Positions 23,960-37,604 of a DNA stretch of 52,638 nt are shown one piece after another. A model generated the notes under the pieces. That model did no database searches and had not been told where the DNA came from. It worked only from the letters and a program-made list of their open reading frames with translations. A program made the position numbers and the translations under genes. The DNA is from a virus. The stretch lies in IMG/VR virus record IMGVR_UViG_3300033155_001652, positions 1 through 52,638 of that record. One strand, given 5' to 3'. Every line of letters starts with the position of its first letter. The first letter of the stretch is position 1.

Positions 23960-25828
23960 CTAGCGATAAAAAATAGATGTTTCTCGTAAAACTTTTCGTA
24001 GTAGTACAAAAAACTGTTCGGCCATATCTTCGATTTTCGATACGACAACATAATTCGCAAAATAATTCTTGACGTGATCTGTACCCATGCCGACGCCTAT
24101 TACTGACACACCCGCTTTCTCTACCCTCTCTACTGATCTTTTAAGATGCGAGTCCAATACAGAGCAGGTCTCTGGAGTTGAAGCCGGTACGCCGTCGCTG
24201 AACATAATAATAATAGGCTTCGCCCCTACAGCAGCTTGAGACAACACCCTATGAGCCGCCCATAACAAACCTTCACCATCCACATTTTGATCCGCATAAT
24301 TCATCTTACCCAACGCAACAAAGCGGTCTCTCGATTGGTTATACCCTTCTCTAACCTGCTTAACTACTAGATGTAGAAGAGGTCGAACACGATCATAGGC
24401 ACCACCCATAGATTTATGCTTAGAGTAAATATCCCCGCTAAAATAATCCCGTGTCGTAAAACCCAAGCATTCATGATCAACATTAATCAAGTCAAGTGTC
24501 TGAGACATCGCCGCTGCACATTGAGCGGCCAGATAAATGTTCTTGTAAGCGCCGGTACGAACATACATCGATGAAGAACAATCAACGAGTAGGCTAACAA
24601 AGGCATTAACAACAATCGCAGGGGTACGATTCTTAAAAACCCTATTCGACCCAAACGCAACCTTAAATAATGATCGTCCGTCGATCTTACCCTTCTTTTT
24701 ATGTCTCACAACCTTCCGACCTACCCCTTGGAATTCCATAAGAGTCTTCCGGCGCAAAACAGGCACTGTTGCCTTAACCGAATGCAGAAACTCTTCCCTG
24801 TCTCTCCAACGAACCGAGTTAGAGTCTATGACCCTGACTACGTCTTGATCCGTATCTGCGAGATAAAAGTCACGCGAAGTAAACTTTTTATCACTAACAA
24901 TACTCTTGCGAACATCCGCGATAGCAGAATCCTTAAGCAATTTAGCTAACTTACGAAACTCTTTTTTTGTCGGGTCTGATTCGCTTTCAGAGGGAGCTTT
25001 ATCCTCCGATGTTGACGACAAGTCTTTATCCTCACTAATTTCGCTTTCATCCGGCTTGCCAGCATCTCCTTCTGAAGAAGATTTGTCCTTCTCACCTTCA
25101 GGCTTTTCGGGGCTTGCAGACGGTTTTTTTCCTTTTTTGCCCTTCTTGGGGGTGTCCTTCTCGCTATTAGTTCGCACCTTTTTGCAATCTGCGCTTTTCT
25201 TTTTGGGCGACTTTGTATCCGACTTAGCCCAATGCGACCAACGTTCTTTTAACTCTTTAGACTTTGTCACAACCTCATAAGTCGTGGGCAATCCTTTAAG
25301 AGTAGGAATGATGTCATCAATCTCATCGAACAATTCATCAACGTCTTCGCCAACCATACGAAGCACTTTTGACCGCTCGTGACCGAAGGTAAGAAGGGTT
25401 ACACCAGCGAGGGCGCGGCGTCTCTTCGATTCTTCTGAGCTATCCCTGCTCTCCCTGATGCGATCAATAGCTCGTCCTCCACTATTAGCTAGATTCTCAC
25501 CGCAACCGTAGTATTCGTCAGTTATGAGTTTTTCTATCCTGCCATCCTCGACAACATTAATCAAAAGCTTAAGAAACGGACATTTAATATCTTCAAGAGC
25601 TGTAATATCTGTATGCTTAAAGTGTCCTGACTCATGATCACAGTCACCACGAAGATCCTCTAAATCTATGGAGCTTAATTCGTCGGGTGTAGGACGAAGA
25701 TGCATAACCCTGTTTTTTAAGTCAGCATAAGGCGCGTCCTTAGCGTCATAAACAACATGAACGTCCATCCCAGCCAAACTAGAAGCAGTAACTCCTTGAG
25801 CCGACTCAATATACTGTTTAGGTCTCAC
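23960..25828 (-). CDS. CobT-like protein: HExxH motif plus VWA domain
   Basis: A 622-aa protein from GTG 25828, whose GTGA overlaps the AAA+ gene stop. An HESGH motif (residues 65-69, HExxH type) suggests a metallopeptidase-like N-terminal domain. A long Lys/Ser/Glu-rich linker (about residues 195-295) follows. The C-terminal von Willebrand A domain has a MIDAS motif (VDCSSSM, about 425) and SDGVP. CobT of aerobic cobaltochelatase and phage relatives share the VWA with an AAA+ partner. With CobN absent from this window, a chaperone-like or remodelling role is as likely as cobalt chelation. Confidence 0.75.
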   Translation of the reverse strand: MRPKQYIESAQGVTASSLAGMDVHVVYDAKDAPYADLKNRVMHLRPTPDELSSIDLEDLRGDCDHESGHFKHTDITALEDIKCPFLKLLINVVEDGRIEKLITDEYYGCGENLANSGGRAIDRIRESRDSSEESKRRRALAGVTLLTFGHERSKVLRMVGEDVDELFDEIDDIIPTLKGLPTTYEVVTKSKELKERWSHWAKSDTKSPKKKSADCKKVRTNSEKDTPKKGKKGKKPSASPEKPEGEKDKSSSEGDAGKPDESEISEDKDLSSTSEDKAPSESESDPTKKEFRKLAKLLKDSAIADVRKSIVSDKKFTSRDFYLADTDQDVVRVIDSNSVRWRDREEFLHSVKATVPVLRRKTLMEFQGVGRKVVRHKKKGKIDGRSLFKVAFGSNRVFKNRTPAIVVNAFVSLLVDCSSSMYVRTGAYKNIYLAAQCAAAMSQTLDLINVDHECLGFTTRDYFSGDIYSKHKSMGGAYDRVRPLLHLVVKQVREGYNQSRDRFVALGKMNYADQNVDGEGLLWAAHRVLSQAAVGAKPIIIMFSDGVPASTPETCSVLDSHLKRSVERVEKAGVSVIGVGMGTDHVKNYFANYVVVSKIEDMAEQFFVLLRKVLRETSIFYR

Positions 25829-27105
25829 AATGCCCCCAGTGGGGTTTCGTATTTCCCGCCATATACTCTTTTAAGTATTTCCTCAAAAGAGCAACGATCC
25901 TCCATAGTAGCTCGATTTAACACGGAAAATGTCCATGCGTCTTCCGGTGACATCCCAGCAACTAGGTTTCTACTTACAGCTAAAGTACGGCGTAAAGAAA
26001 CAGACATCATGACTTTTTCGCTATCAAGAGCTTTACGCATTAAATCCGCAGTCTTAACAACGTTCTCGGCATATTTCATGGGCAAGCCAATACGCTTATT
26101 AATAATGAGTGACTCCTGGTCTTTGGTGGGGTAACTAACCCGAATAAAACAATTCCATCGATCAAGGAAAGCTTCATCCTGCAAGGCTCGACCATGGTAA
26201 AGACCCATAGAATCACCTCGTCCTTCGGTGTTTTGGGTGCCTGTTACTCGAAAATTGTCGTGGCGATCAATAGACCCATCGTACCCTTTTCTAAGGATCT
26301 CCATAGAACGACCATCAATGATCCTATAAAGCGCATAACAAGCCTCTGGAGGCACTGCGTCTGCCTCATCCAGAAGCAAGCCATAACCTTTCTCAAGGGC
26401 AATTGCAGGAGCAGCAGGATTAAATACGGTCTTCATCCCGCCCGACTCAGTATCAACTAGATCTGTCACACCCTCTAGGTCATCCGCTGTTTGAGACGGG
26501 TTACAAGAAACTATAAGCAATCTTTGATTTAACTCTTTGAAGAGTTGTTCGACTGCTTCAGATTTGCCCGCGCCAGCAGGACCGATAAGAAGAACAGACA
26601 ACCCCGCTTTTACGAACTTTCTAAAGTTATTGAACCAATCAGGATAGAGGAAAAAGTTATCGTCTATCCCTTCTTTCTCTATCACCATCGAGTCAATCTT
26701 GGGTGCGGCACCTTTGATTGTCTGTTTACGTATCTTTCCCATTGAGTCCATATAAAAAACGGACCCTTTTCGAGCCGAAGCTCTAATAAAAGACGGGTGA
26801 CAAATAAGAGATTCAGCAGAAAGACCGTCTGCTTGCTCTGTTATATCATCGACGCTAAATACTTCCTCTTCTCCTTTTAACATCCAATCAACAACGTCAT
26901 CACACAAGTATTTCTCCACTGTCCTTTTGGAGTTTATCTTTAACGAAGACCCGAAAGAATCACCCATAGATGTTGATACTTCATTACTACCAACAAACCT
27001 AGATCGAAAAGCATCGACAGCCCCTGAAGCTGACCCTTTCAATTTCTTCTTTGTCACCGCTGGTTTTTTATCCCAAGGTTTCTTAGGAATAATTGGTTTC
27101 TTCAT
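25825..27105 (-). CDS. CobS/MoxR-type AAA+ ATPase
   Basis: A 426-aa ATPase. Walker A GPAGAGKS is at residues 175-182, Walker B is GLLLDEADAVPPEA, and an arginine-finger region follows (YHGRALQDEAFLDRWNCFIR). The MoxR/CobS group works with a VWA protein, and such a gene follows with a 4-bp overlap. The N-terminus is Lys/Pro-rich, and then a short module (about 60-140) precedes the ATPase core. GGGGG lies upstream of ATG. It lies between primase and the CobT-like gene within the replication operon, which suggests it acts on phage DNA metabolism. Confidence 0.8.
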   Translation of the reverse strand: MKKPIIPKKPWDKKPAVTKKKLKGSASGAVDAFRSRFVGSNEVSTSMGDSFGSSLKINSKRTVEKYLCDDVVDWMLKGEEEVFSVDDITEQADGLSAESLICHPSFIRASARKGSVFYMDSMGKIRKQTIKGAAPKIDSMVIEKEGIDDNFFLYPDWFNNFRKFVKAGLSVLLIGPAGAGKSEAVEQLFKELNQRLLIVSCNPSQTADDLEGVTDLVDTESGGMKTVFNPAAPAIALEKGYGLLLDEADAVPPEACYALYRIIDGRSMEILRKGYDGSIDRHDNFRVTGTQNTEGRGDSMGLYHGRALQDEAFLDRWNCFIRVSYPTKDQESLIINKRIGLPMKYAENVVKTADLMRKALDSEKVMMSVSLRRTLAVSRNLVAGMSPEDAWTFSVLNRATMEDRCSFEEILKRVYGGKYETPLGAL

Positions 27106-27134
27106 TAATAACCCCCAAATTAAATAACTTATTT

Positions 27135-28187
27135 CTATCTTGTAATACCGCCAAGAGGGGTGTTCCAGCGAACATTTCTAAGAATAATAGACGCCGATTT
27201 AATAAGATCCCTGATGGCTTCAATACTTAATGACCCTGGGTCTTCACCAATAGGAGTCTGAACAAGCCTCAAAGACAATGGTTTCAACGATTTGACAGCT
27301 TTACGTGCCATAATACGACCAGCAGCATCACCATCAGCAAATATATAAACTGTCGAAGGACAACTATTTTTTATAGTCACTACATGTTCTTTTGTTAAAC
27401 CAGAACCCATACACGCGACTGCGCCGACGTCTCCTCCCATCGCCTGATGAACCATCAAAGCATCGCCTGGACCCTCGACCAGTATCACAGGCTTGCCCGT
27501 CTTAAGTAAATGCCCCCCAAACAAATACTTTGACTTATTAAGACCAGAGTAATTAAACCACTTCGGAGACCTATCCCCTGTAATATCCCGACCAGTCATA
27601 CCAATCAACTTACCGTCATGCCTACGACACGGGAAAACAAGCCTCTCCTTCCTCGGATCGAACCTCAGTCCCCAATATCTACAAGTATCCTCAGACAACC
27701 CCCTATCTATGGTGTATTTAGGCAAATCACTAACAAAGCCTAAGTCATCGAAGACACTCTCCTGTAGAATATCCCGCTCATCAGGATCTCTTCTGTTATA
27801 AACTGCATTACATCGCTCAACACGTTTTTTCACTCGTAACCGGGCGCGGCCAGTTATTGTTGACCAATCTTGCTTTTCTTGCTTATTTAACCAACTAAGA
27901 AGTTTAACAAACTTATAGTCGGCCTTACGCATCGCTACAGCCTTTTCAATAAGCCTAAGTAACGAACCCTCAAACCCGCAAGAAATAGAATGACACTTGG
28001 CAACCGAAGGACCGGCTTCCTCGATTTTAATAGAACAAGAATTATTATCGTCGTAAGGGTTAGAATGTGTACTGATAGCTAAGGGGCATGACACTGAGAT
28101 ATGCGGTCCCCTAGACCCACCTATATAATCTCGTGTATATTCAAGACCTAATTCATTACATATTCTCACAATCCCTGTAGAGTCCAT
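27135..28187 (-). CDS. DNA primase (TOPRIM, DnaG-like)
   Basis: A 350-aa primase. The N-terminal region has a CHC2-type zinc finger pattern (CPLAIS, H, later CHSISCGFEG). The core has LVFPCRRHDGKLIGMTGRDI. The TOPRIM domain shows VEGPGDAL (Glu) and FADGDAAG (DxD). It would prime lagging-strand synthesis with the DnaB helicase encoded just upstream, 10 bp away. AAGGG precedes ATG. Confidence 0.85.
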   Translation of the reverse strand: MDSTGIVRICNELGLEYTRDYIGGSRGPHISVSCPLAISTHSNPYDDNNSCSIKIEEAGPSVAKCHSISCGFEGSLLRLIEKAVAMRKADYKFVKLLSWLNKQEKQDWSTITGRARLRVKKRVERCNAVYNRRDPDERDILQESVFDDLGFVSDLPKYTIDRGLSEDTCRYWGLRFDPRKERLVFPCRRHDGKLIGMTGRDITGDRSPKWFNYSGLNKSKYLFGGHLLKTGKPVILVEGPGDALMVHQAMGGDVGAVACMGSGLTKEHVVTIKNSCPSTVYIFADGDAAGRIMARKAVKSLKPLSLRLVQTPIGEDPGSLSIEAIRDLIKSASIILRNVRWNTPLGGITR

Positions 28188-28197
28188 CTAACTACCC

Positions 28198-29511
28198 TTA
28201 AACATCAATCTCTTCCCCGGTCCCTGATAATGATTCAACATCTTCAAAAGATTCAAGCTCGGAAAAGTCAGCATTAGCCATATTAAATTTGATTCTGAAT
28301 CCAAAAGGTATCTTGAATTCATTAGCTTTCAGACAAATAATCGTCCTTAAGTCAGACGGCCCATCATCATCAGCTCCCCCAAAAACACCAAGAACCACCG
28401 AAGACGTATCGAAAATAGCAGACGCATACTTTGCCGCCTCACGAGAAGACGACCTAGACGTTGACTTTGCTTCCTTCTTAAACTGACTGGTGATAATAAC
28501 AGGCACATCGCAGCCGACAGCTACTTTACGGAGACCCTCAATAGCCTCCGTCACCCGCTCCCATCTTGCCTTCCGATGCTCATGGGAATTAAGCAAGTAA
28601 ACTCCATCAATTACTACCAATCTTGGTTGCAGTTCCTTGCACCGCAACATGATATCCTTGACAGATCGAACCTCGTCACCAAAGAAAATAATTTCAGGCC
28701 GCATAGAATCTCGGTCTGCATACTTTTCGCAGAATTCTTTTAACTTTTTTTCCTCAATTTCTGTCAGATATCCACTGGTCAACCGTTCGTAATCCAAACC
28801 CAATGAAATAGCGGCTATTCGATCAAGTAAAGTCTCGCGAACTGTTTCCAATGAGAAAAATAACACACACTCACCCAAGCCCAAACTATTGTCCCAGGAA
28901 TGAACAGCTTGAACCAATGACAAGTGAGTCTTTCCCACTCCCGTCTTAGCGAGTATCGTTGTAATTTGTCCTTTTTGGAATCCTTTACTACGCTTATCCC
29001 ACGAAGGCCAAGGCGAAGACAAACCCACTATTTCACCGGATCTACGGCGATCTTTTACCAAGTCATAACGACTTTTAATTAGAGCCATCGTATCAGGATT
29101 ATTGGTGCGTACCTCCTCGGCACGTCTATCCCTAGCTGTATCCAAGAATAACTCCTGAAGAAGCTCACGACTCTTATCAGGGTCTTTCTCGGCTTTAGAC
29201 GCGATGCCCTCCAAGCCTGAATAAATACTTTCCCGAAGGTGCGTCTTACGTATCGACTCGGCGTATATCTCAGTGTCACACTCCAAATCCCAATCAGGAA
29301 CCTCAACATCAATAGCAGTAATTATCTCGTGTCTGTTAGGCATACGGGATTTGCCCAAAAAGCCCATGAGATAGCTAAAAGTCTTATAGGTATCAGATCC
29401 ATACTCACCAAGATACTTGGCTTCGATACCTGCGCGAGTAACCTTTGATAACTCGCAGGGACCGCCTTGCATCATTCCGTGAATAAGCATCCATTCAACT
29501 GAAAGACTCAT
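28198..29511 (-). CDS. dnaB: Replicative DNA helicase, DnaB-like
   Basis: A 437-aa hexameric helicase. The Walker A AKTGVGKT is at about residue 190, and the Walker B-like strand LVVIDGVYLL is followed by a DnaB-type C-terminus. The N-terminal primase-interacting domain is short. It overlaps the DnaC-like gene by ATGA and is followed 10 bp later by the primase gene. The gene order loader, helicase, primase suggests a self-contained primosome. Confidence 0.88.
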   Translation of the reverse strand: MSLSVEWMLIHGMMQGGPCELSKVTRAGIEAKYLGEYGSDTYKTFSYLMGFLGKSRMPNRHEIITAIDVEVPDWDLECDTEIYAESIRKTHLRESIYSGLEGIASKAEKDPDKSRELLQELFLDTARDRRAEEVRTNNPDTMALIKSRYDLVKDRRRSGEIVGLSSPWPSWDKRSKGFQKGQITTILAKTGVGKTHLSLVQAVHSWDNSLGLGECVLFFSLETVRETLLDRIAAISLGLDYERLTSGYLTEIEEKKLKEFCEKYADRDSMRPEIIFFGDEVRSVKDIMLRCKELQPRLVVIDGVYLLNSHEHRKARWERVTEAIEGLRKVAVGCDVPVIITSQFKKEAKSTSRSSSREAAKYASAIFDTSSVVLGVFGGADDDGPSDLRTIICLKANEFKIPFGFRIKFNMANADFSELESFEDVESLSGTGEEIDV

Positions 29512-30161
29512 TCGGCACCGCCTCTCCAGTCAACCTCTGCAACCTGTATAGACCGATAAGCGTGTCTTAATATTGTCGATAGATCATCATAATGACTCAC
29601 TGTCTCGTCGGGACGATTGTTGGTGTTTATGATAGTCATAAGTTGACTATCATAACGATGCCTAATCAAATCTTCTGTCGCTTGCTTAATCTTAGCTGAC
29701 TCATGACTTGTACTATTCTCTCGTTCAACGCCCATCTCGTCTAAGACAACAAGTTGATAGCGCCGAAGGTCGGCCCAACGATCCTTTTGACTTTCTTCAA
29801 AATCAAAAGCAATACGACCAAGATCACGGGCTGACACAAACCGACACCGGCAACCTCTCTTTATAGCCTCGTAAAGAACAGATACAGACGCGCCCGTCTT
29901 ACCAGTTCCATACGAACCGAACATAAGAAGACCGTCACCGCGCTTATCCCGCTCAACAAGAGTCTCAACAAAAATCATCAGTCCGGCTCGATAGTCAACA
30001 TTATCTGGCACCTTATCTAAACGACACTGTTGGTATCGTTTAGGAACACCAATGACCCGCATGATCCTCTGAATCTCTTTATCCTTAACAAACTTGTCAG
30101 GATTAGTTTCTACAGGCTGTCTGTAGATCCTACCCCCACCTTTATCTATGTCCCAAGGCAT
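29508..30161 (-). CDS. DnaC-like AAA+ helicase loader
   Basis: A 217-aa protein. The Walker A FGSYGTGKT and Walker B LVVLDEMG flank a typical DnaC/DnaI core, and a region with arginine (FVSARDLGRIAF) follows the P-loop. The N-terminus is unstructured and helps bind helicase in relatives. It has a good GGAGAGG RBS and is adjacent to DnaB downstream and the initiator-like gene upstream. It would load DnaB at the phage origin. Confidence 0.82.
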   Translation of the reverse strand: MPWDIDKGGGRIYRQPVETNPDKFVKDKEIQRIMRVIGVPKRYQQCRLDKVPDNVDYRAGLMIFVETLVERDKRGDGLLMFGSYGTGKTGASVSVLYEAIKRGCRCRFVSARDLGRIAFDFEESQKDRWADLRRYQLVVLDEMGVERENSTSHESAKIKQATEDLIRHRYDSQLMTIINTNNRPDETVSHYDDLSTILRHAYRSIQVAEVDWRGGAE

Positions 30162-30170
30162 AACCTCTCC

Positions 30171-31595
30171 TTACTCCTTGAAATCCGGCTTTATCAATTT
30201 ATCCAAATCGTACTTCTCACGGCAAATCTCATCGAAAGTCTTATAAGTCTTGGGTTTTACATTCTTAACAACATGCGAAGAAACCCTTGATGACCCATCC
30301 GTAAAACCAGTATCAATCCGCGAAGCCAATACATCCGCCAGACGATACATATGCGAAAGCACCGGATGACCTTCCTTCGGCTTTGGAAAAACCTTGTCCT
30401 TGATCGTCGAATAGTCAGCAACCAAAACCTGAGCCATCTTTCTCACAACCTCCGGCTTGTAAACCGAAACGGTCTGCGCCAGATTCTTAAAATCCTTACC
30501 AGTAGGCTGGAGCGGTATAGCCGCATTCGGATATGTCTTTAGTAACTCTTCGTTAAACATCTCGAAAGCTTCAATAGGAGTCGTCCCTCCCTTTGGTGTT
30601 ATCCTCTCCTTGCCTACCTTCTTATACCGACGAGAAGATTTCTCTGGCGATGATTTCTTTGAAACCTTCGGCTTTTTCTCGACATCGAACATAATCCGCT
30701 GATTACCATCTTCATCCTGGTCCTTGATAAAGGATTTCCGAAAAGGTAAATCTCTAGCCACCAAATCCGGTCGCAGGCATTCTTCTGTCTTTTCGGATTC
30801 TTCAAAAGGAAAATTTTTGTTTTCATCTCCGGCGAATGAGCGAAGCGAATTCGGCAAAAAAGAATTACGAAGTAATTCTTTTTCTCTTCTCTTTTCCTCT
30901 CTTATTAAATGTGCGGGCGCGTAGCAAGCATCGTTCCCGACTTCTGACACAGGTAATTCCTTGTCTGTAGAGGAGTCATTTGTTTCGTAGTCACTAAGAG
31001 GGACCGCCAGGTTTCTGGCGGGGGGTGCGCCAGGTTTCTGGCGGTTACTCTTTTGGGGGACCGCCAGGTTTCTGGCGGGGGGTGCGCCAGGTTTCTGGCG
31101 GGCATCTGTTTCTTTTTCACCGGAGGAATCTGATTTTTCCGGCAATTTTGATGGGACTTTTGCGATGATTTCGCCGGTATTTTTATCAGACCAGATGGCG
31201 ATGTTTACCTGATCACCATAGACAGCTTCAAGGTCATTAAGAAAGATGACAAGCTTATTGGGATTTTCGGTATCCTTTGCCCGAACCAATAGCTCCTTCT
31301 CTTCAAGCTCAACTAAAGTTTCTCTTACGGTACTTATCCCTCTTTTAAGGAATCGAGCCATTTCTTTTATGGTGGTGACGACACGGTTGGCTTTTTGGCT
31401 TCGAGCGAGGCAAACGACAAAGCCATAAACCCTTAACTGTCGGTCTGATATATTCGGGTCACACAACACACAATCGTGGATTTTTGTAAAATAACTGCGC
31501 CCGTTTTTAAGTTTTTTTGTGGGCGGATTTCGATAGAGAAGAATAAGATCGTTTGAAATAGCGGGTTTGAGAGAGTCGTGTCTTTGATATACCAT
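30171..31595 (-). CDS. Replication initiator-like protein with winged helix and in-gene iterons
   Basis: A 474-aa protein. The N-terminal part (about 20-120) reads as a winged helix: a helix with ISDRQLRVYGFVVCLA, then TIKEMARFLKRGISTVRETLVELEEKELL. A linker (about 165-200) encodes two copies of the peptide RQKPGAPPARNLAVP and corresponds to four CG-rich inverted repeats in DNA. The C-terminus (KDFKNLAQTVSVYKPEVVRKMAQVL) is like the helical C-terminal domain of DnaD/phage initiators. AGGAG is 10 nt before ATG. By analogy to lambda O, it probably binds the repeats inside its own gene and recruits the loader and helicase encoded downstream. Confidence 0.7.
   Translation of the reverse strand: MVYQRHDSLKPAISNDLILLYRNPPTKKLKNGRSYFTKIHDCVLCDPNISDRQLRVYGFVVCLARSQKANRVVTTIKEMARFLKRGISTVRETLVELEEKELLVRAKDTENPNKLVIFLNDLEAVYGDQVNIAIWSDKNTGEIIAKVPSKLPEKSDSSGEKETDARQKPGAPPARNLAVPQKSNRQKPGAPPARNLAVPLSDYETNDSSTDKELPVSEVGNDACYAPAHLIREEKRREKELLRNSFLPNSLRSFAGDENKNFPFEESEKTEECLRPDLVARDLPFRKSFIKDQDEDGNQRIMFDVEKKPKVSKKSSPEKSSRRYKKVGKERITPKGGTTPIEAFEMFNEELLKTYPNAAIPLQPTGKDFKNLAQTVSVYKPEVVRKMAQVLVADYSTIKDKVFPKPKEGHPVLSHMYRLADVLASRIDTGFTDGSSRVSSHVVKNVKPKTYKTFDEICREKYDLDKLIKPDFKE
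31001..31102. repeat. Four inverted repeats CGCCAGGTTTCTGGCG, candidate origin iterons
   Basis: Four copies at 31005-31020, 31028-31043, 31062-31077 and 31085-31100, each a 6-bp inverted repeat around GTTT. They are in two pairs with 23 bp between copies and 57 bp between pairs. They lie in frame inside the initiator-like gene, as the lambda O-protein sites do. Confidence 0.7.
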
Positions 31596-31645
31596 GAAAC
31601 GAAAACTCCTGGCCTTGATAATGTTGACCTAGAGCTATATTTTCC

Positions 31646-31659
31646 GTTATGATCATAAC
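31646..31659. promoter_or_regulatory. Perfect palindrome GTTATGATCATAAC, possible operator
   Basis: A 14-bp perfect palindrome about 50 bp upstream of the initiator-like start codon, flanked by GAGCTA (31632-31637) and TAGCTC (31664-31669). It could bind a dimeric repressor or initiator. Confidence 0.45.
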
Positions 31660-31671
31660 CATGTAGCTCCA

Positions 31672-31804
31672 GTCTTATTATTAAGGCTTCCTAAAAGTTG
31701 GAAATAAACGCTTTTGTCTTATTATTAAGGCTTGCTAAAGTTGTGGAAATAAACGCTTTTGTCTTATTATTAAGGCTTCCTAAAAGTTGGAAATAAACGC
31801 TTTT
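31672..31804. repeat. Three tandem 44-45 bp repeats, candidate iterons
   Basis: Units at 31672-31715, 31716-31760 and 31761-31804 are near identical, without spacers. Copies 1 and 3 match fully and copy 2 has a small change near CTTGCTAAAGTTGTGG. Unit ends are gtcttattattaaggctt and aaataaacgctttt. They are AT-rich and lie upstream of the initiator-like gene. Confidence 0.8.
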
Positions 31805-31863
31805 GTTAAGTATCCGCTGTGAGCTAAAGTTGTAAAGTATCTGCGGTGATACCTTTGATTCAT

Positions 31864-31893
31864 AAACAACCCCGGTCATTTCCGGGGTTGTTT
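31864..31893. terminator. Bidirectional-looking Rho-independent terminator
   Basis: A perfect 12-bp stem AAACAACCCCGG, loop of 6, CCGGGGTTGTTT. It separates the 158-aa gene (ending 32031) from the origin region and would stop minus-strand transcription before the repeats. Confidence 0.75.
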
Positions 31894-32030
31894 GCTGTAC
31901 GTCTTTGTAATTGGTGTTCTCAGCATCCGATCCCCGGTCTTCTATTCTAACCATCAATTTAACCAGATTACTAGAACATAACCATCTTAAAAGATGATCT
32001 GTTATAGACATTAGGATTGAAGGGGAAAAT
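31894..32030. other. Gene-free stretch
   Basis: Within the 435-bp gene-free interval 31596-32030, after the palindrome, repeats and terminator. I see no ribosome binding site or recognisable RNA in this part. Confidence 0.5.
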
Positions 32031-32507
32031 TCATTTGTCATGGAACAGTGCGGCATCGCCGCCATAGAATTCTTGGGAGATCATATGACACACCCCTAAT
32101 TTCAAATTAGCTAGAATAACGTTCTTTGTTACTAACGTCTCAGGGTTGTTCATAAGAGAGTCTTCGTGATCTTTGATGATCCCTCCCGCCTTGCAATACC
32201 ACCCTCGAAGCTGATTAACGGTAGGCACCTCATCTGGGTGTCCTTGGCCGCGCTTACTGAGCCATCTATTCTGCTCTAAGATCAAAGCAGCCATGTTTTC
32301 GACGTCTCCTATAGTAGCTTTCCTCGTATTATGAAGTAGGACTTTGCTCATATAGGATCTAGCTAAGACAAAGCTAATATCTACCACAGTCACGGTCTCA
32401 GGGAACCAGTAGGGGTCTCCCCTTACTTCAGGGTTTGCCCGCGTTTCCTTCAAGATCTTCTTTTCTATCGCGTCAACAAGTTCAATACTGTCTATGTTAA
32501 GCACCAT
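32031..32507 (-). CDS. Hypothetical protein
   Basis: A 158-aa protein, helical in predicted appearance, starting with ATG after AGGAGG. It contains a mid region with KRGQGHPDEVPTVNQLRG and no recognised motif. It lies upstream of the origin repeats and behind a CGGTATAAC motif only 16 bases before the start codon. Not assigned. Confidence 0.65.
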   Translation of the reverse strand: MVLNIDSIELVDAIEKKILKETRANPEVRGDPYWFPETVTVVDISFVLARSYMSKVLLHNTRKATIGDVENMAALILEQNRWLSKRGQGHPDEVPTVNQLRGWYCKAGGIIKDHEDSLMNNPETLVTKNVILANLKLGVCHMISQEFYGGDAALFHDK

Positions 32508-32522
32508 TGGCCTCCTTTTTTA

Positions 32523-32531
32523 GTTATACCG
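32523..32531 (-). promoter_or_regulatory. CGGTATAAC promoter-like motif, copy D
   Basis: It lies 16 bases before ATG 32507, so the transcript leader would be very short and begin close to the RBS. No -35 box seen. The shortest spacing of the four copies makes this the least secure. Confidence 0.4.
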
Positions 32532-32552
32532 ATAAAGAGGCTTGTTTGAATA

Positions 32553-32918
32553 TTAAAAAACACGCCCTTCTTCTTTTTTTACCGGAATTCTGGGTATTTT
32601 ACATTTCTTATAACAAGTCTCTTTAACATCCCAACAACAACACTCTGTTTCTTCTTTTTTACAACATTTACCCCACGCGATACAAACGCTACAGGCTTTA
32701 TCCCCTTTAGCGATTTGTTCAAGGGTAGGCTTCCAACAAGGTTGATAGGCTATAAAATCATTCTTGGCGCACTTATCGCAAATACGCCCCTCACCATGAA
32801 GATTCCTTAGTCTTTTTAAGCGTTTAGTTGAAGCTTCAGCACGGTTATCGTTATATCCAATACCAAAGCCGACGACAATCAAAGCAAGAGCAGCAAAACC
32901 GAAGATATACTTTTTCAT
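32553..32918 (-). CDS. Secreted cysteine-rich small protein
   Basis: A 121-aa protein with an apparent signal peptide (MKKYIFGFAALALIVVGFGI, then AEA-S). The mature part has more than a dozen Cys, including CDKC, CSVC, CCK, a CCCWDVKETC segment and CKIP near the end. The Cys spacing suggests metal binding or disulphides. AAGGAG precedes ATG. It could act in the envelope or periplasm; nothing in the window shows a partner. Confidence 0.65.
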   Translation of the reverse strand: MKKYIFGFAALALIVVGFGIGYNDNRAEASTKRLKRLRNLHGEGRICDKCAKNDFIAYQPCWKPTLEQIAKGDKACSVCIAWGKCCKKEETECCCWDVKETCYKKCKIPRIPVKKEEGRVF

Positions 32919-32968
32919 AAGATTCTCCTTCTACTCTCACAATGACCACTTTATGACGATTGTTCAAG

Positions 32969-33358
32969 TTACACTTTTTCGGCGGCGAATATTTCACCCA
33001 TCAGTTTGCGGGTACCTTTGTTTATCTCGGCAATGACGACGCACTCGTCCCCCGAAAACAAAGCCACATCAGGATGAAACTCCTCAACAAAGAAGTTGAT
33101 AGTCAAGAGCCAATGGTTATACGTTGACTCCTGTAACTCTTTGTTCGTGCGCAAGATATCTAGCCATTCCAACATCTCCTCCATCTTTGGAATCTCGTGA
33201 GGATGAGTTTTCATCCTTCTCTTTACTGCCACCAATCGGCGGCTCCAGTTGTCAAGTTGCTTATGAATAATGCACTTCGGCGCATTAATCCTTTTGAACA
33301 CGGCGAGAAAATTCTTCCCGCTCAAATATGATCGGACCAATTCGAGTAAGTCTTTCAT
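32969..33358 (-). CDS. Hypothetical protein
   Basis: A 129-aa protein with a basic N-terminal half (RRLVAVKRRMKT) and a hydrophobic, aromatic C-terminal part (HWLLTINFFVEEFHPDVALF). AAGGAG lies 7 nt before ATG. The leader includes the ACACCATAGG-like sequence and a hairpin. No family recognised. Confidence 0.6.
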   Translation of the reverse strand: MKDLLELVRSYLSGKNFLAVFKRINAPKCIIHKQLDNWSRRLVAVKRRMKTHPHEIPKMEEMLEWLDILRTNKELQESTYNHWLLTINFFVEEFHPDVALFSGDECVVIAEINKGTRKLMGEIFAAEKV

Positions 33359-33381
33359 TCTATTCTCCTTGTTTACATAAC

Positions 33382-33399
33382 GACCTATGGTGATAGGTC
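33382..33399. promoter_or_regulatory. Perfect hairpin GACCTAT-ggtg-ATAGGTC
   Basis: A 7-bp perfect inverted repeat in the leader of the 129-aa gene. The minus strand includes CACCATAGGTC, shared with two other leaders (near 37887 and 51512). Confidence 0.45.
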
Positions 33400-33406
33400 T
33401 GGGGAC

Positions 33407-33437
33407 AAAAAAATCCCACGCCGTAACATGGGATTTT
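33407..33437 (-). terminator. Rho-independent terminator
   Basis: On the minus strand AAATCCCA, a 10-base loop and TGGGATTT run into more T residues. It ends the small gene at 33446. Confidence 0.7.
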
Positions 33438-33445
33438 CATTATCT

Positions 33446-33580
33446 CTACTCAATAAAATCTTCGTCTTTGCATCGAGCATCGACGATGCCCTTGAATTTG
33501 AAGGCATTAGGAGACGCCGACTCAAACATAAATTGTTGGGCCAATCTATTAAGTATTTTCTCTTTCTCCTGATCATTCAT
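33446..33580 (-). CDS. Small hypothetical protein
   Basis: A 44-aa protein (MNDQEKEKILNRLAQQ at the start) whose ATG overlaps the TGA of the preceding gene by 4 bp. Its charged N-terminus is helix-like. An in-frame ATG at 33592 (MGKRMN) is an alternative start without a better RBS. Confidence 0.5.
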   Translation of the reverse strand: MNDQEKEKILNRLAQQFMFESASPNAFKFKGIVDARCKDEDFIE

Positions 33581-33807
33581 TCTTTTACCCATGCTTTCTT
33601 TAGATGGCTTGCTTTCTTTGCCTGCCTTGCTCTCTTTATCGGTCTTAATTGGTTCTCGCTGTTGTATTTTGCAAGAGCAGATTTCTCGGACCAATGGCCT
33701 GTCGTCTCCACTCTTGTCACAGCTAACCACCCGTGTTGATAACCTGCCGGAGCAACATAAACCCCCGGTACCCAATCAAAACTGGCGCATAAATTTGGAT
33801 AAGTCAT
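33577..33807 (-). CDS. Hypothetical protein
   Basis: A 76-aa protein with an aromatic, hydrophobic first half (SFDWVPGVYVAPAGYQHGWL) and a basic second half (RPIKRARQAKKASHLKK). AGGAAA lies 5 nt before ATG. A terminator precedes it. Unknown function. Confidence 0.6.
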   Translation of the reverse strand: MTYPNLCASFDWVPGVYVAPAGYQHGWLAVTRVETTGHWSEKSALAKYNSENQLRPIKRARQAKKASHLKKAWVKE

Positions 33808-33840
33808 TTTTATTTCCTTTCGTTAGAGTTAGTACATGCC

Positions 33841-33860
33841 AAAAAGCCCCGTTAGGGGCC
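33841..33860 (-). terminator. Rho-independent terminator GCCCC-TAAC-GGGGC
   Basis: A 5-bp GC stem with a TAAC loop followed by TTTTT on the minus strand, 5 bases beyond the stop of the 149-aa gene. Confidence 0.7.
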
Positions 33861-33864
33861 ATAG

Positions 33865-34314
33865 TCATGGCGTACCGCCGTTTCTTGCTAATCGGCTCAT
33901 TTCCACGCAGCGATCCATCGTATTACTGTCGAGTCCTCTTAGCGGCTCCTCGCTGTCCCAAGGGATCGGCAGAGTCGCAAACTCGTTCGCCCATAGGATA
34001 GCAATTGCCTTCCGGCTTAGGCCAGACACCGCCGACAATCCGCTGTGCCGGTGTGTCACGTTCCAAGGCCCACGATTCTCTCCCCAAGCGCGATGCACTG
34101 CAAAGTGGTCGCCCACTGGAATCGCCTCGACAATCTTTTCGTCGTCACTCGCCAACTTAAGCATGAAGCTCTTGCCGGAAGCGATGCGCTTCGCTTTACC
34201 CTCCGCGACCTTATCACGAAAGAACTTTTTCACGTATTCGACATCCCCATCATCTAATTTAGATAGGAGCTTTCCCATCGTAATATCAGTAATTGACACT
34301 GATTTGGTTGACAT
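33865..34314 (-). CDS. Hypothetical protein
   Basis: A 149-aa protein from ATG 34314, preceded by AAAGGAG. The first 65 residues are helical and charged; the rest is mixed, with TPIPWDSEE-like acidic and basic segments. No motif recognised. It is the first of a run of small genes with similar leaders: a hairpin, GATGGTAATTCAA and a purine-rich RBS. Confidence 0.6.
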   Translation of the reverse strand: MSTKSVSITDITMGKLLSKLDDGDVEYVKKFFRDKVAEGKAKRIASGKSFMLKLASDDEKIVEAIPVGDHFAVHRAWGENRGPWNVTHRHSGLSAVSGLSRKAIAILWANEFATLPIPWDSEEPLRGLDSNTMDRCVEMSRLARNGGTP

Positions 34315-34352
34315 AATAATCTCCTTTGTTAATTGAATTACCATCGGCTAAA
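34315..34352 (-). promoter_or_regulatory. Conserved small-gene leader, representative copy
   Basis: On the minus strand TTTTAGCCGATGGTAATTCAA leads to an AAAGGAG RBS. About eight other leaders between 34.6 and 40.2 kb carry the same GATGGTAATTCAA or a close variant at the same distance from their hairpin. Role unknown. Confidence 0.6.
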
Positions 34353-34371
34353 AGCCCCGGTCAAAGGGCTT
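34349..34371 (-). terminator. Hairpin terminator of the zinc-ribbon gene
   Basis: AAGCCC and GGGCTT pair around an 8-base loop, followed by TTTT on the minus strand. It lies just past the stop of the gene at 34375. Confidence 0.65.
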
Positions 34372-34374
34372 CGT

Positions 34375-34653
34375 TCATTGCGCGTCGTCGTAGGCTAGTA
34401 GCTTCTCGCCAGGGTGGTCCTCCTTGCGAAAGCCCCGCACCGTGATCGGCTTTATGTGCCACGTATCCACGCCCCCTTCGGCTTGAATTCGCTTGCCGAA
34501 GCCGACCACGACTTCCGCACCGCAGCCGGGGCAGCGGTAGCGGTCGCCGCTGCTGTAGGCTGTCGGGTCGCAGCCCCCGTGGAACACGGGAAAGCCGTTA
34601 CGAGTGCAACGCATCTGAAGCCGACACTTAACACAAACTGGTCTATGCAACAT
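34375..34653 (-). CDS. Zinc-ribbon protein
   Basis: A 92-aa protein with Cys pairs CVKC (about residue 6) and CPGC (about residue 42) and two further Cys around them, plus a short basic stretch. It looks like a four-Cys zinc ribbon that could bind nucleic acid or protein. The second ATG (34653) was chosen because GGAG stands 7 nt upstream; the first (34659) is only 2 nt from it. Function unknown. Confidence 0.6.
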   Translation of the reverse strand: MLHRPVCVKCRLQMRCTRNGFPVFHGGCDPTAYSSGDRYRCPGCGAEVVVGFGKRIQAEGGVDTWHIKPITVRGFRKEDHPGEKLLAYDDAQ

Positions 34654-34690
34654 TTCCATTCTCCTTTTTAAGTTTGAATTGCCATCGGCT

Positions 34691-34712
34691 TAAAGCCCCC
34701 GAAGGGGCTTAA
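34691..34712 (-). terminator. Hairpin with UUCG loop
   Basis: On the minus strand AAGCCCC-TTCG-GGGGCTTT, an exceptionally stable tetraloop type, overlapping the stop of the gene at 34709. Confidence 0.75.
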
Positions 34713-34888
34713 CCTCTCACAGTCTTCAAAATGTATTGAAGCCTTTTTTCAGTCTCCTCCATAACCGAAACCAATGCCAGATTAGTTTCAGGGTTTTGGT
34801 ATTTATCAAGCCATTCTCTTGTCTTGATACTGGCAAGCTTAATACATTGAAAAGCTTCTTCAGCTTCCGTTACCGCCTCAGATTTCAT
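34709..34888 (-). CDS. Small hypothetical protein
   Basis: A 59-aa, helical, charged protein with an amphipathic pattern (AEEAFQCIKLASIKTREWLD). AAGGAGG lies 6 nt before ATG 34888; upstream in-frame codons lack such a site. The leader is short and only the hairpin precedes the RBS. Confidence 0.55.
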   Translation of the reverse strand: MKSEAVTEAEEAFQCIKLASIKTREWLDKYQNPETNLALVSVMEETEKRLQYILKTVRG

Positions 34889-34899
34889 AATTCCTCCTT

Positions 34900-34922
34900 G
34901 AAAAGCCCCCAAAGGGGCTTTC
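34900..34922 (-). terminator. Hairpin terminator
   Basis: AAAGCCCC-TTT-GGGGCTTTTC on the minus strand, overlapping the stop of the gene at 34921 and lying directly before the next RBS. Confidence 0.7.
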
Positions 34923-35262
34923 AGTCTATCTCTAGCTCAACACGCAGAATGCCAATACTAGCTCTGGTCCGATCAATTAATGCCATCATATCCTGAGCAT
35001 ATTTATTGCAGATTGTCGCGTATTCATAATCGACGGCGCAGTCGCCACTTTCAATCAATTCGCTCATTGCAATCAATATGTTATCGAACGTTTCAAGCTC
35101 GGCAACTTCTTGGCCTTTAGGGGTTGCCTCGTTACATAAAGTGCATCTGTTTGCGACCAAATTATTCATATCAAAAAACGCGGGTTGGTCCCCCGAAAGC
35201 TTAAAACTATCTTTCGGGAATAACGCGGGAAAAAGCTGGTTCTCACAAAGTATACATTTCAT
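34921..35262 (-). CDS. Small protein with two Cys pairs
   Basis: A 113-aa protein with CILC at residues 3-6 and CTLC near residue 40, fitting a zinc ribbon, then a helical C-terminal part (LETFDNILIAMSELIESG). AAAAGGAGAT precedes ATG 35262. The upstream gap holds a copy of the long promoter-like motif. Unknown function. Confidence 0.6.
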   Translation of the reverse strand: MKCILCENQLFPALFPKDSFKLSGDQPAFFDMNNLVANRCTLCNEATPKGQEVAELETFDNILIAMSELIESGDCAVDYEYATICNKYAQDMMALIDRTRASIGILRVELEID

Positions 35263-35286
35263 AATGATCTCCTTTTGGGTTGTATC

Positions 35287-35330
35287 CTTATAAAGTAAAA
35301 GCGATGATGGACCGAGAAAAACTTCTAAGA
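35287..35330 (-). promoter_or_regulatory. Long promoter-like motif, copy 1
   Basis: On the minus strand GTCCATCATCG is followed by a T-rich run and TTTATAAGG, 25 bases before ATG 35262. It matches the copies at 36984, 37041 and 40577 over about 40 bases, with CCATCATCG invariant. Confidence 0.6.
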
Positions 35331-35360
35331 CCATTGATACCCCTACCTTGTGTTACCGCA

Positions 35361-35382
35361 AAAAGCCCCCTTAATGGGGGGC
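35361..35382 (-). terminator. Hairpin terminator
   Basis: GCCCCC and GGGGGC pair around a 6-base loop, followed by TTTTT on the minus strand. It lies at the stop of the 120-aa gene. Confidence 0.7.
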
Positions 35383-35733
35383 AATAGCGAACACGCCGCG
35401 CTCATTACATAAACAATACCGAGCATTCTGCGTTAATGCACGGCTCTTTTTTATAAAGAAATGAGAACCCCTGTAAGGGTTGTAAGAAATAGCTTCCAAA
35501 CAACCCTTACCAATGTTCGCAACAGTGCCGACAACGAACGCATGAACGTTCTTTCTGCGCTGTCTCAGAACCCGCTGACGCCCTTTCTCTGATACTTTGA
35601 AGGCGCAGTTCTTGAGACTAATCAAAGACGTATGGTCAACAACTAACCAACGCCCATCGACCTTCTTTTGAACTGAGTAAACGACTAGGCCAGGGCTGGA
35701 TCGAGTAAGATTTACATACACTCTTACCAACAT
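35371..35733 (-). CDS. Hypothetical basic protein
   Basis: A 120-aa, strongly basic protein (GRQRVLRQRRKNVHAFVVG) with a beta-like N-terminal segment and two Cys near the end. AAGGA precedes ATG 35733; the gap to the upstream stop is 2 bp. Possibly nucleic-acid binding. Not recognised. Confidence 0.55.
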   Translation of the reverse strand: MLVRVYVNLTRSSPGLVVYSVQKKVDGRWLVVDHTSLISLKNCAFKVSEKGRQRVLRQRRKNVHAFVVGTVANIGKGCLEAISYNPYRGSHFFIKKSRALTQNARYCLCNERGVFAIAPH

Positions 35734-35735
35734 AA

Positions 35736-35978
35736 TCAGTCCTTCTTAGTCATCATGAATTTGAGCAATTCACGCGCCTTTTGTTTAGCTCCATCCATTG
35801 AATTAGCTTTGCAGTCTCGTGTTACAGTGACCTGGACACCCCATTTACCAGTGGAATACTGGAAAACTCGAATATCAGTCCTTTCGTTAGAAGCAAACCT
35901 ATAACCTTTCACAGTCGGTATGGTACTCATGTCATCGCATTCTTGATCATGCAACGTTCCCCAACAGATATTTTTCAT
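35736..35978 (-). CDS. Hypothetical protein
   Basis: An 80-aa protein with a central beta-like segment (YSTGKWGVQVTVTRDCKA) and a helical basic C-terminus (GAKQKARELLKFMM). AAAAGGAGATTG precedes ATG. It is one of the small-gene cassettes with the hairpin and conserved leader. Confidence 0.6.
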   Translation of the reverse strand: MKNICWGTLHDQECDDMSTIPTVKGYRFASNERTDIRVFQYSTGKWGVQVTVTRDCKANSMDGAKQKARELLKFMMTKKD

Positions 35979-36012
35979 AACAATCTCCTTTTAAGTTTGA
36001 ATTACCATCGCA

Positions 36013-36033
36013 GAAAAGCCCCCGAAGGGGCCA
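36013..36033 (-). terminator. Hairpin with UUCG loop
   Basis: On the minus strand GCCCC-TTCG-GGGGC plus TTTT. It lies at the stop of the 120-aa protein with AKPK repeats. Confidence 0.7.
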
Positions 36034-36035
36034 AT

Positions 36036-36398
36036 CTACTTGATCTTACTGAAGTTATCCTCCATCCAATAACCAATTTCACTGTCATTTTCAAAATACC
36101 CGACAATGCGAGGGCATTTCTTGTGTGTGAGAACAGTCCCCCACTTTTTCGGTCCCTTCATCTCAGGTCGATGGTAGGACGACCCTACCTTTTTATTAGG
36201 TACCTGAGCGACTCTTCTCGGTTTTGGATTATGCCAAATCTCGTAAAAATCCGGCGCAACCGCGTAAACCCTGAATCGACCGCTCGCGAGCCAAAGGCAA
36301 TCAGGGGGGGTCTCCTCCAGCTTCGCTTTTGGCTTCGCTTTTGGCTTCGCTTTTGGCTTCGCTTTTGGCTTCGCTTTTGGCTTCGCTTTAGTTGCCAT
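36036..36398 (-). CDS. Protein with AKPK tandem repeats
   Basis: A 120-aa protein starting MATKAKPKAKP. Residues 4-26 are tandem AKPK units encoded by a 12-bp repeat, a tail typical of DNA- or RNA-binding disordered regions. The following part is globular-looking with KCPRIVGYFENDSEIGYW. GAGGGGG lies 7 nt before ATG. It overlaps the upstream gene by 11 bp. Family not recognised. Confidence 0.6.
   Translation of the reverse strand: MATKAKPKAKPKAKPKAKPKAKPKAKLEETPPDCLWLASGRFRVYAVAPDFYEIWHNPKPRRVAQVPNKKVGSSYHRPEMKGPKKWGTVLTHKKCPRIVGYFENDSEIGYWMEDNFSKIK
36321..36391. repeat. Tandem 12-bp repeat within the AKPK gene
   Basis: Five exact tandem copies of cttcgcttttgg from 36321 to 36380, then a partial sixth. 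It is inside the coding region and gives AKPK repeats; copy number could vary between relatives. Confidence 0.85.
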
Positions 36399-36939
36399 CT
36401 TTAGCCCCCTCAACCGCGCTCCAGGGCAGATTAACACTGATATTAGGAAGCTCTGGTATTACAAGCTCTCGGCGACTTCTAAAAGTCGAGTCGAGCAATT
36501 GATACCTCTTGCTATACTCAGTAAGTCGCTTCCCGTCTTCAGTCTTATCCCAGGCTTTGCCTTGGTTATGCGAATAAACAACGATGGACTCTAAGATACT
36601 CTTAACACAATCATCGTATGCTTCCATAGCCAAAGATAATTCGTCTTCGGCTACATAACTAGATTTGAGGAAGTGATCAAAATGCTTACTCGCACGTTCG
36701 ACAGCCCCCTCCGCAGATGCAAATTTCTCAAGCTCATCGTATAGGAACAGATTTTCAATAACTGGCAGCTTTTGATCAGACTCGGTCTCCAAATCTTTCA
36801 ATCGCTGACGAGCTTCAAGAACATCTTGTTTAAGTTGAACTAAAGAATTTGCAATCGTTGCCATATAGGAAGAAGAGCCTTCGATTGCTTCTGTAAGAGA
36901 AGCAATTTTTTGCTCTAACTTCTGATGTTCATTTGACAT
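36388..36939 (-). CDS. Coiled-coil hypothetical protein
   Basis: A 183-aa protein with a coiled-coil N-terminus (HQKLEQKIASLTEAIEG and LKQDVLEARQRLKDLETE), then a helical middle and acidic C-terminal part. ATG 36939 follows AGGAG by 7 nt; the TTG 3 nt before it is less likely. Two copies of the long promoter-like motif precede it. No function seen. Confidence 0.6.
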   Translation of the reverse strand: MSNEHQKLEQKIASLTEAIEGSSSYMATIANSLVQLKQDVLEARQRLKDLETESDQKLPVIENLFLYDELEKFASAEGAVERASKHFDHFLKSSYVAEDELSLAMEAYDDCVKSILESIVVYSHNQGKAWDKTEDGKRLTEYSKRYQLLDSTFRSRRELVIPELPNISVNLPWSAVEGAKDGN

Positions 36940-36983
36940 CAAAATTCTCCTTTCCTCAAAATGAGGATTTTGGTTTTCTCTAC

Positions 36984-37030
36984 CCTTAAAAAGTAAAGTC
37001 GATGATGGACGTCCAAAAAACTTTGGGACT
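36984..37030 (-). promoter_or_regulatory. Long promoter-like motif, copy 2
   Basis: CCATCATCG core 45 bases before ATG 36939, with a less conserved poly-T flank than the other copies and TTTTAAGG in place of TTTATA. Confidence 0.5.
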
Positions 37031-37040
37031 TCCTACACTC

Positions 37041-37085
37041 GTATAAAGAGAAAGCGATGATGGACCGAAAAAAAGTTTTAAGTCT
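37041..37085 (-). promoter_or_regulatory. Long promoter-like motif, copy 3
   Basis: GACTTAAAACTTTTTTTCGG then TCCATCATCG and CTCTTTATAC on the minus strand. It is nearly identical to copy 4 at 40577 and lies 57 bp upstream of copy 2. Confidence 0.55.
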
Positions 37086-37100
37086 TTTGTTTTTCAGGAC

Positions 37101-37604
37101 TTAAGAAATCTTGTTCGAGGTACCGTTTGAAGACGAAGGGGAGCTTTTGAGGGGATGGTTCTGTTGATCTTGAGCTAGAATTTTCAAGAGATGTAAACGA
37201 GTATTTTCCGTGTCCTCTCGACTCCTGGTTATCTCTACATCTTGAGAAGGTAAGTTTTGCTCGGCGACCTTGACTATTTCATAATGATGGCCGGAAGCTG
37301 GCTTCCAAGAAATTTCCTCAACGTCGAGATACGGCCCCCCCTCACCATTGGCGAGGAAGACGGCAAAATGTCTTTGTTCTTGTACTTCCCCATCATCAAT
37401 TTCTGTTTCTTTAACAAAAAAAGCTTCTTCCATAATGTCAATTATTTTAATACCTATTCCATAAACTAATCTTTTAATTCCGTTACCTGGACCTACAAAC
37501 CTACTTGTCCTTTTCACAGTAGGCTGTCTCTTAAGGGTTGTATTGGTTATAACAAACGGCACTGCCTCCCCTGCCTTAAGTTTTATCTTTTTTATTCCTG
37601 TCAT
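37101..37604 (-). CDS. Hypothetical protein
   Basis: A 167-aa protein from ATG 37604 with GGAGG 8 nt upstream. The first part is basic (KKIKLKAGEAVPF), the middle beta-like with acidic patches, and the C-terminus is Ser/Asn-rich (KSSPSSSNGTSNK). It overlaps the upstream gene by 29 bp. Not recognised. Confidence 0.55.
   Translation of the reverse strand: MTGIKKIKLKAGEAVPFVITNTTLKRQPTVKRTSRFVGPGNGIKRLVYGIGIKIIDIMEEAFFVKETEIDDGEVQEQRHFAVFLANGEGGPYLDVEEISWKPASGHHYEIVKVAEQNLPSQDVEITRSREDTENTRLHLLKILAQDQQNHPLKSSPSSSNGTSNKIS

Follow-up and report, generated by a model that had tools for sequence, protein, structure and literature searches.

In phage lambda the replication origin is located inside the initiator gene, O, after the N-terminal part of the coding sequence, and the Stx phages P27 and 933W have the same arrangement. 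The lambda origin contains four dyads (starts 39034, 39054, 39078, and 39101; spacing of 20, 24, and 23 bp), and lambda uses its P protein together with the DnaB of the host. Excerpts of a report on lambda state that O binds 19-bp imperfect inverted repeats and that unwinding requires no more than two iterons and the AT-rich tract (PMC7466680). For Bacillus phage SPP1, the excerpts available describe an origin, oriL, made up of direct repeats and an AT-rich unwinding element in the initiator gene; gp38 binds the oriL repeats inside gene 38, and initiation requires gp38, the loader gp39, and the helicase gp40 (PMC6316719). According to the same excerpts, SPP1 has two origins, oriL and oriR, and its primase is the host DnaG (PMC6316719).

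The window, that is the whole stretch of DNA analysed here, comprises 52,638 nucleotides of a virus (positions 1 to 52,638 of IMG/VR record IMGVR_UViG_3300033155_001652). We infer from the sequence, with high confidence, that it carries a theta-type origin of the lambda O or SPP1 gp38 kind, active inside the gene of its own initiator and bound by that protein. Four repeats in this gene, after its N-terminal part as in lambda, are most likely the initiator binding sites where copying of the phage DNA starts, and the site would presumably be the main origin. The arrangement is known already; the sequence and the lineage are new.

Replication genes and the predicted initiator

The genes and upstream repeats around the putative origin are as follows.

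31672–31806, minus strand: a 44-bp unit in three tandem copies on the 5' side of the initiator gene, every copy containing TTTCCA, 16–17 bp, and AATAAT
30171–31595, minus strand: initiator-like protein of 474 aa, with weak PHROG matches (best E 4e-6)
31233–31460, minus strand: predicted winged-helix DNA-binding domain, residues 46–121 (AlphaFold model and fold matches)
29508–30161, minus strand: DnaC-like helicase loader with the Walker A motif GSYGTGKT (phrog_50, E 8.4e-25)
28198–29511, minus strand: DnaB-like replicative helicase (family matches)
27135–28187, minus strand: Toprim DNA primase (family matches)

The order on the minus strand is initiator-like gene, DnaC-like loader, DnaB-like helicase, and Toprim primase; the earlier note had placed the last three directly after the initiator, and gene order and family matches agree. 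PolA (20358–22652) and a RecA-like protein (17014–18258) are encoded farther along the same strand. The loader gene follows the initiator gene as in a lambda O-type origin, and this part of the proposed likeness to lambda stands. Unlike lambda, the window phage has its own DnaB, primase, PolA, and a DnaC-like loader with a Walker A motif; the loader and the phage DnaB make the gene set more like gp38-gp39-gp40 of SPP1 than like O-P. By the published description, of which excerpts were available, SPP1 has the same set of initiator, loader, and DnaB-type helicase; a phage primase follows in the window whereas SPP1 relies on host DnaG (PMC6316719). No counterpart of the SPP1 oriR was identified in the window.

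The TTTCCA and AATAAT hexamers of the 44-bp repeats form weak sigma-70-like pairs and are candidate promoters of the replication operon; the 44-bp units have no notable fold (z +0.8). Farther upstream, at about 31865–31892, a hairpin AACAACCCCGG..CCGGGGTTGTT was seen by eye and was unflagged by the terminator scan; hairpin and repeats are perhaps a terminator followed by tandem promoters. Directly beyond the primase, at 23960–27105 on the minus strand, are genes for an AAA ATPase (AAA_5; PHROG 'porphyrin biosynthesis') and a CobT-like VWA protein. Both take their names from parts of cobalt chelatase; that they sit in the replication cluster points to a different role. The cumulative GC skew falls from one end of the window to the other without a turn near 31 kb, and 37 of the 40 ORFs of at least 150 aa lie on one strand; the skew is uninformative as evidence on the origin.

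The weak PHROG matches of the initiator-like protein (186, 270, 1098, and 428) are to DnaD-like loader, replication initiation, and HTH families. Lambda O matches PHROGs 277, 678, 345, 391, and others; the window protein has no match to these O-like families, and 678 is matched by some of the relatives described below. AlphaFold, with an alignment of ten initiators as input, predicted a winged helix at residues 46–121 (helices 51–66, 76–83, and 87–99; strands 71–74, 103–107, and 115–119) with ten-residue pLDDT means of 76–91 across residues 51–120. The model is poor beyond this domain (mean pLDDT 48.4), and the linker, residues 122–228, has pLDDT below 50. Fold matches were to winged-helix regulators of the MarR/CRP-like type and included 4pt7, titled 'Structure of initiator' (Z 9.5, rmsd 2.5, 84 residues). 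In a viral fold library several replication initiators were matched among mostly HTH entries, including 'lambda GpO, N-terminal' (E 1.6e-4) and 'replication protein O' (E 3.1e-3). A common fold, here a predicted one, is by itself no proof of function, and the lack of a lambda O structure among the matches listed in the PDB fold searches excludes nothing. By sequence, the window protein alone gave nothing useful against solved structures; profile A2 gave weak matches to MarR-like regulators (best E 0.003) and, in hhalign against lambda O, a probability of 10% (E 0.003). The location of the repeats in the linker of a winged-helix replication protein, as the earlier note had it, is supported by the predicted domain, its fold matches, and the low pLDDT of the linker.

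Repeats within the initiator gene

The 16-mer CGCCAGGTTTCTGGCG occurs in four exact copies that start at 31005, 31028, 31062, and 31085, with a spacing of 23, 34, and 23 bp. In coding direction they are as follows.

31085–31100, minus strand: iteron 1 (CGCCAGAAACCTGGCG on the minus strand), read as RQKPG
31062–31077, minus strand: iteron 2, the identical 16-mer in a different frame (ARNLA)
31028–31043, minus strand: iteron 3, read as RQKPG
31005–31020, minus strand: iteron 4, read as ARNLA

Each copy is an inverted repeat with arms of 6 or 7 bp flanking AAAC on the coding strand. The block occupies about codons 165–197 of the ORF, within the low-confidence linker. Two pairs with 23 bp within a pair and 57 bp between pairs had been proposed, and the exact positions bear this out. 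No fifth match with up to three mismatches was found in all 52,638 bp of the window, the chance mean is 0.19, and four matches were reached in none of 100 dinucleotide shuffles of the window. The paired-dyad score, which measures a dyad unit repeated at 19–36 bp, is 28 for this gene; none of 200 codon shuffles equalled it (largest 24). Because the spacing within a pair is 23 bp, the identical 16-mer is translated in two frames, as RQKPG and as ARNLA, which is expected if the DNA and not the peptide matters. The 45-bp unit that holds an iteron pair is duplicated exactly at a distance of 57 bp, and this duplication could be a recent accident. Rfam gave no match at gathering scores and no tRNA was found. 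Compared with lambda (20/24/23), the spacing of the window repeats is 23/34/23; the iterons are exact in the window and degenerate in lambda, and their sequences are unlike.

Repeats in distant relatives

Distant relatives were reached through searches with DnaB and primase, and the initiator position was taken to be the second gene upstream of DnaB (the third in HJ05). Under a strict criterion (an exact repeat of at least 12 bases, direct or inverted, within 60 bp), clean clustered repeats were present in 9 of 15 initiator-position genes, the window included, vs. 8 of 84 other ORFs of at least 250 aa from the same loci (Fisher p 4e-5; without the window, p 1.5e-4). Codon shuffles yielded such repeats in 0–3 of 100 cases. 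Six of the eight control ORFs with repeats have direct repeats in low-complexity-looking coding sequence, and two have inverted ones (by eye). The eight of 14 relatives with clean repeats carry sequences quite unlike those of the window.

HJ05: GGGACACTGGTGTCC, two copies, 23 bp spacing
SM1: TCCAAAATTTGGCACAC, two copies, 22 bp spacing
L026: GGTGGTACCAATTCGTACCAC, 35 bp spacing
L037: GTTCGCGAGACGAAC, 22 bp spacing
L038: TGAGACTACCCCGTCTCA, 21 bp spacing
L043: ACATCCGGATGT, 24 bp spacing
L057: two direct repeats, 24 bp spacing
I4: an inverted pair

No clean repeat was found in the remaining six of the 15 genes (L024, L027, L028, L029, L032, and L035). L032, counted as a miss, is probably not an initiator (no PHROG match; Hint-like by eye), and L036 was left out, its neighbour being a ligase gene. 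Lambda O also misses the strict criterion, which is therefore conservative for origins and gauges clean repeats. By the paired-dyad score, no shuffle among 200 was as good in only seven of the 15 genes; four of 200 were as good for L037 and for lambda, and 16 to 177 of 200 for L021, L024, L027, L028, L029, L032, and L035.

Pseudomonas phage SM1, Aeromonas phage HJ05, and Rhizobium phages RHph_I4 and L338C share the order of initiator-like gene, gene of about 190 aa, and DnaB, with one extra gene in HJ05. In all four, as in the window, the initiator gene contains repeats or dyads and an AT-rich stretch beyond its N-terminal part, and the repeat sequences are unlike those of the window. The gene of about 190 aa between initiator and DnaB in L020, L021, L022, L026, L028, and L038 has neither a PHROG match nor a Walker A motif. 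Among the relatives, all nine middle genes scanned were without a PHROG match, and the six of these that were aligned were without Walker A; in the window and in L043 the middle gene is clearly DnaC-like. The middle gene of the six loci could possibly be an unrecognised loader family.

A further DnaB scan gave 80 loci, 14 of them contigs that had already been encountered, as the source of a second set. From the layouts, 26 loci were picked by hand, and removal of five near-duplicates left 21. By their N-terminus, judged after the run, 12 were winged-helix-like and nine were others, eight of the latter seemingly of one family. Strict repeats were found in 9 of the 12 vs. one of the nine (L086), with a Fisher p of 0.01 as computed with one of eight others. 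L062 has three copies at 21 bp and L079 three at 22 and 23 bp; repeats are also present in L074, L084, L093, and L104, and the inverted repeat of L099 may be due to chance. PHROG matches of initiator type, some of them weak (threshold 0.05), were obtained for 10 of the 12 winged-helix genes (not L065 or L121) vs. none of the eight others scanned. A family of about 240–290 aa at the initiator position near DnaB (L085, L086, L088, L090, L092, L096, L100, and L103) has an MPTFGADP-like stretch near the N-terminus and a clustered repeat only in L086; none of the seven members scanned (L100 being outside the scan) had a PHROG match.

The outcome that the earlier note named as a refutation, relatives that keep the peptide and have lost the DNA repeats, did not arise: the peptide is absent from the distant relatives. 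At the same place, clean DNA repeats particular to each gene were found in 9 of 15 genes of the first set and 9 of 12 of the second; in the remainder these tests showed degenerate repeats, single dyads, or no repeat.

Weak DNA and hairpin next to the repeats

Two further features were found 3' of the iterons.

30861–30910, minus strand: weakest 50 bp of the gene by nearest-neighbour energies (26% GC), a candidate DNA unwinding element
30857–30883, minus strand: perfect 12-bp inverted repeat with a 3-nt loop, AAAAAGAATTAC TTC GTAATTCTTTTT, overlapping the weak stretch

The weak stretch begins 94 bp 3' of the iteron block, and the hairpin folds as single-stranded DNA with -8.7 kcal/mol (z -4.3). 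Lambda O, as positive control with the same measure, has its weakest 50 bp at +4 (24% GC); an AT/purine-rich stretch thus lies 3' of the repeats in both, at +4 bp in lambda and +94 bp in the window. A possible hairpin also follows the AT-rich stretch of lambda (imperfect 9-bp stem, -7.3 kcal/mol, z -2.7; it misses the perfect-arm criterion given below). The lambda-like layout that had been claimed for the window holds for the dyads, the linker, the weak DNA, the hairpin, and the gene order; it does not hold for the position of the weak stretch, which is 94 bp off, whereas in lambda and in most genes of the first set it adjoins the repeats.

In 12 of 14 genes, lambda O and the window among them, the weakest 50 bp lie at -13 to +94 bp from the point where the repeat block ends on its 3' side. 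The share of L027, L028, L029, and L035 in this count is softer because codon shuffles matched their paired-dyad scores in 24, 21, 177, and 109 of 200 cases. In these four genes the block, of degenerate repeats or single dyads, was marked by eye; L024 and L032 were left out, and the exceptions are L021 and L057. With the strict repeat criterion the weak stretch is near the block in 7 of 9 genes; for the second set the corresponding count is 6 of 9, L065, L071, and L099 being the exceptions. In RHph_I4 the weakest 50 bp of the gene are elsewhere, though the 3' flank is weak too.

Inverted repeats with perfect arms of at least 7 bp and loops of 0–6 were counted in the 165 bp 3' of the block and occurred at 2.48/kb vs. 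0.64/kb elsewhere in the same 22 genes (9 vs. 15 cases, p 0.003). Such a repeat is present in only 7 of the 22 genes, lambda not being among them, and the hairpin therefore often accompanies the block but is no fixed component of it. The hairpin loop ACTTCGT is common to the window and L043, and SM1 has ACTACGT; the likeness between window and SM1 may perhaps come from a common peptide (KELLR and KEILR, by eye).

Close relatives and silent-site conservation

The initiator, loader, and primase of the window were searched singly against viral contigs and gave one near relative, an IMG/VR record of 46,130 bp that is identical over the 9,422 bp compared (100% over 24000–34000 and 99% over 4001–23999 of the window). 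The four iteron copies are present in both records, which may come from non-independent reads and provide no evolutionary information on the repeats. The window DnaB gave no relative among genome contigs, the window initiator had no match in a phage collection, as was also the case for the L043 initiator, and no moderately diverged relative of the window phage was found in the viral and genome contig searches. The 16-mer itself occurs in 13 stretches of viral contigs: 12 are single-copy and the thirteenth is the near-identical contig. When 60 bp on each side were compared, the flanks were alike among the single-copy stretches L010, L012, L014, and L015, and also between L008 and L016.

Silent-site conservation was assessed in a pair of Rhizobium phages, no suitable relative of the window having been found. 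The initiators of I4 and L338C are 76.5% identical. In columns 216–263, which hold the repeats and the AT-rich stretch, residue identity is just 31/48, and an identical codon is used in 29 of the 31 identical residues vs. 235 of 350 elsewhere (Fisher p 8e-4), the limits of these four bins of 12 having been chosen from the table afterwards. Single bins at columns 300 and 420 are also fully codon-identical (11/11 each).

Alternative explanations and a proposed mechanism

The repeats might instead be operators at which the initiator or another phage protein represses its own operon while replication starts elsewhere. Dyad sites in the gene of a MarR/CRP-like winged-helix protein would fit a repressor, and a bound array inside the gene could block elongation. 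Operators are normally found at the promoter, however, and these sites lie some 500 bp inside the coding sequence; an origin is the better fit for the hairpin and weak DNA to their 3' side and for the neighbouring loader, helicase, and primase genes. Repression in place of an origin is thus unlikely, and autoregulation may exist alongside origin function. A stronger second origin elsewhere, for example at 31672–31806, would leave the in-gene repeats as accessory sites. The three near-identical tandem copies immediately 5' of the initiator gene, and the two origins of SPP1 in the excerpts cited (PMC6316719), speak for this; the 44-bp units hold promoter-like hexamers and have no notable fold, and we regard it as quite unlikely.

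It is very improbable that the repeats reflect a feature of the peptide (the RQKPGAPPARNLAVP linker), with the DNA repetition a by-product of tandem duplication. The 57-bp period keeps the frame, so that the linker peptide is duplicated too, and among the 16 genes of both sets with clean direct repeats the spacings are all divisible by three in seven (L038, L043, L057, L062, L065, L071, and L104), about or slightly above the third expected by chance. In the other nine (the window, L020, L022, L026, L037, L074, L079, L084, and L093) a spacing is not divisible by three; within the window pairs the 23 bp make identical DNA encode different peptides, and the peptide is in no relative. Least credible of all is a mobile palindromic element, or an array of RNA hairpins (terminator or attenuator), that came to lie in the gene by chance. 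Every copy folds well, one plus-strand copy is terminator-like, and the 16-mer is found once each in 12 other viral stretches, some of them near-copies of one another. Against this, the window holds no more copies, the region has two terminator-like sites vs. a shuffle mean of 3.4, no Rfam family matches at gathering scores, and relatives have other repeat sequences at the same place.

The preferred reading, an origin inside the initiator gene, draws support from the non-random repeats and their two reading frames, the winged helix and linker, the nearby weak DNA, the repeats of relatives, the silent-site conservation, the enriched inverted repeats, and the lambda and SPP1 precedents; the 94-bp gap and the relatives lacking clean repeats count against it. 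By analogy with lambda and SPP1, the following steps are proposed. Several copies of the initiator would bind the four dyad 16-bp sites through the N-terminal winged helix, and their assembly would strain and open the AT/purine-rich weak stretch at about 30861–30910, perhaps aided by the hairpin. The DnaC-like loader would then put the phage DnaB on the opened strand, and the phage primase and PolA would begin synthesis.

A broader rule is conceivable, which we put forward tentatively and hold to be somewhat doubtful as a whole. Many phages that encode a winged-helix initiator next to DnaB would have their origin in the linker of the initiator gene, with repeats, weak DNA, and sometimes a small hairpin, and initiator and site would travel and diverge as a unit, each lineage with an iteron of its own. 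In the window lineage the opening site would have moved about 94 bp off the iterons and coincide with the 12-bp hairpin, which may be a loading or priming signal.

Candidate origins in cultured phages

The window provides a testable candidate origin for an uncultured phage. The layout rule also suggests origins in cultured phages: Pseudomonas phage SM1 and its near-identical kin (12 records), Aeromonas phage HJ05, and Rhizobium phages L338C and I4. Among the titles and abstract openings listed for Samunavirus and vB_RleS_L338C none mentions an origin, which is no proof of its absence from print. The added value here is the comparative evidence and the list of suggested origins in cultured phages. 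If the rule is true, both the origin and the specificity of the initiator could be deduced from sequence, even for proteins too diverged to align well.

Other repeats in the window

A repeated intergenic cassette occurs among small genes at 34300–40215 on the minus strand, at 8 of the 11 places aligned. In it, a terminator-like hairpin (e.g., GCCCCTTCGGGGGCTTTT, by eye) precedes the conserved leader GATGGTAATTCAAACTTAAAAGGAG, after which comes a start codon; allowing up to three mismatches, six matches to the leader core were counted (chance mean 0.09). The sequence GGTCCATCATCGCTTTNTCTTTATA is present in three copies with up to two mismatches (35289–35313, 37042–37066, and 40577–40601, minus strand; chance mean 0.00), which are perhaps a family of phage promoters. 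At 43245–43639 on the minus strand, long imperfect tandem arrays with periods of 45, 90, and 135 encode a repetitive protein beside a DNA methylase gene.
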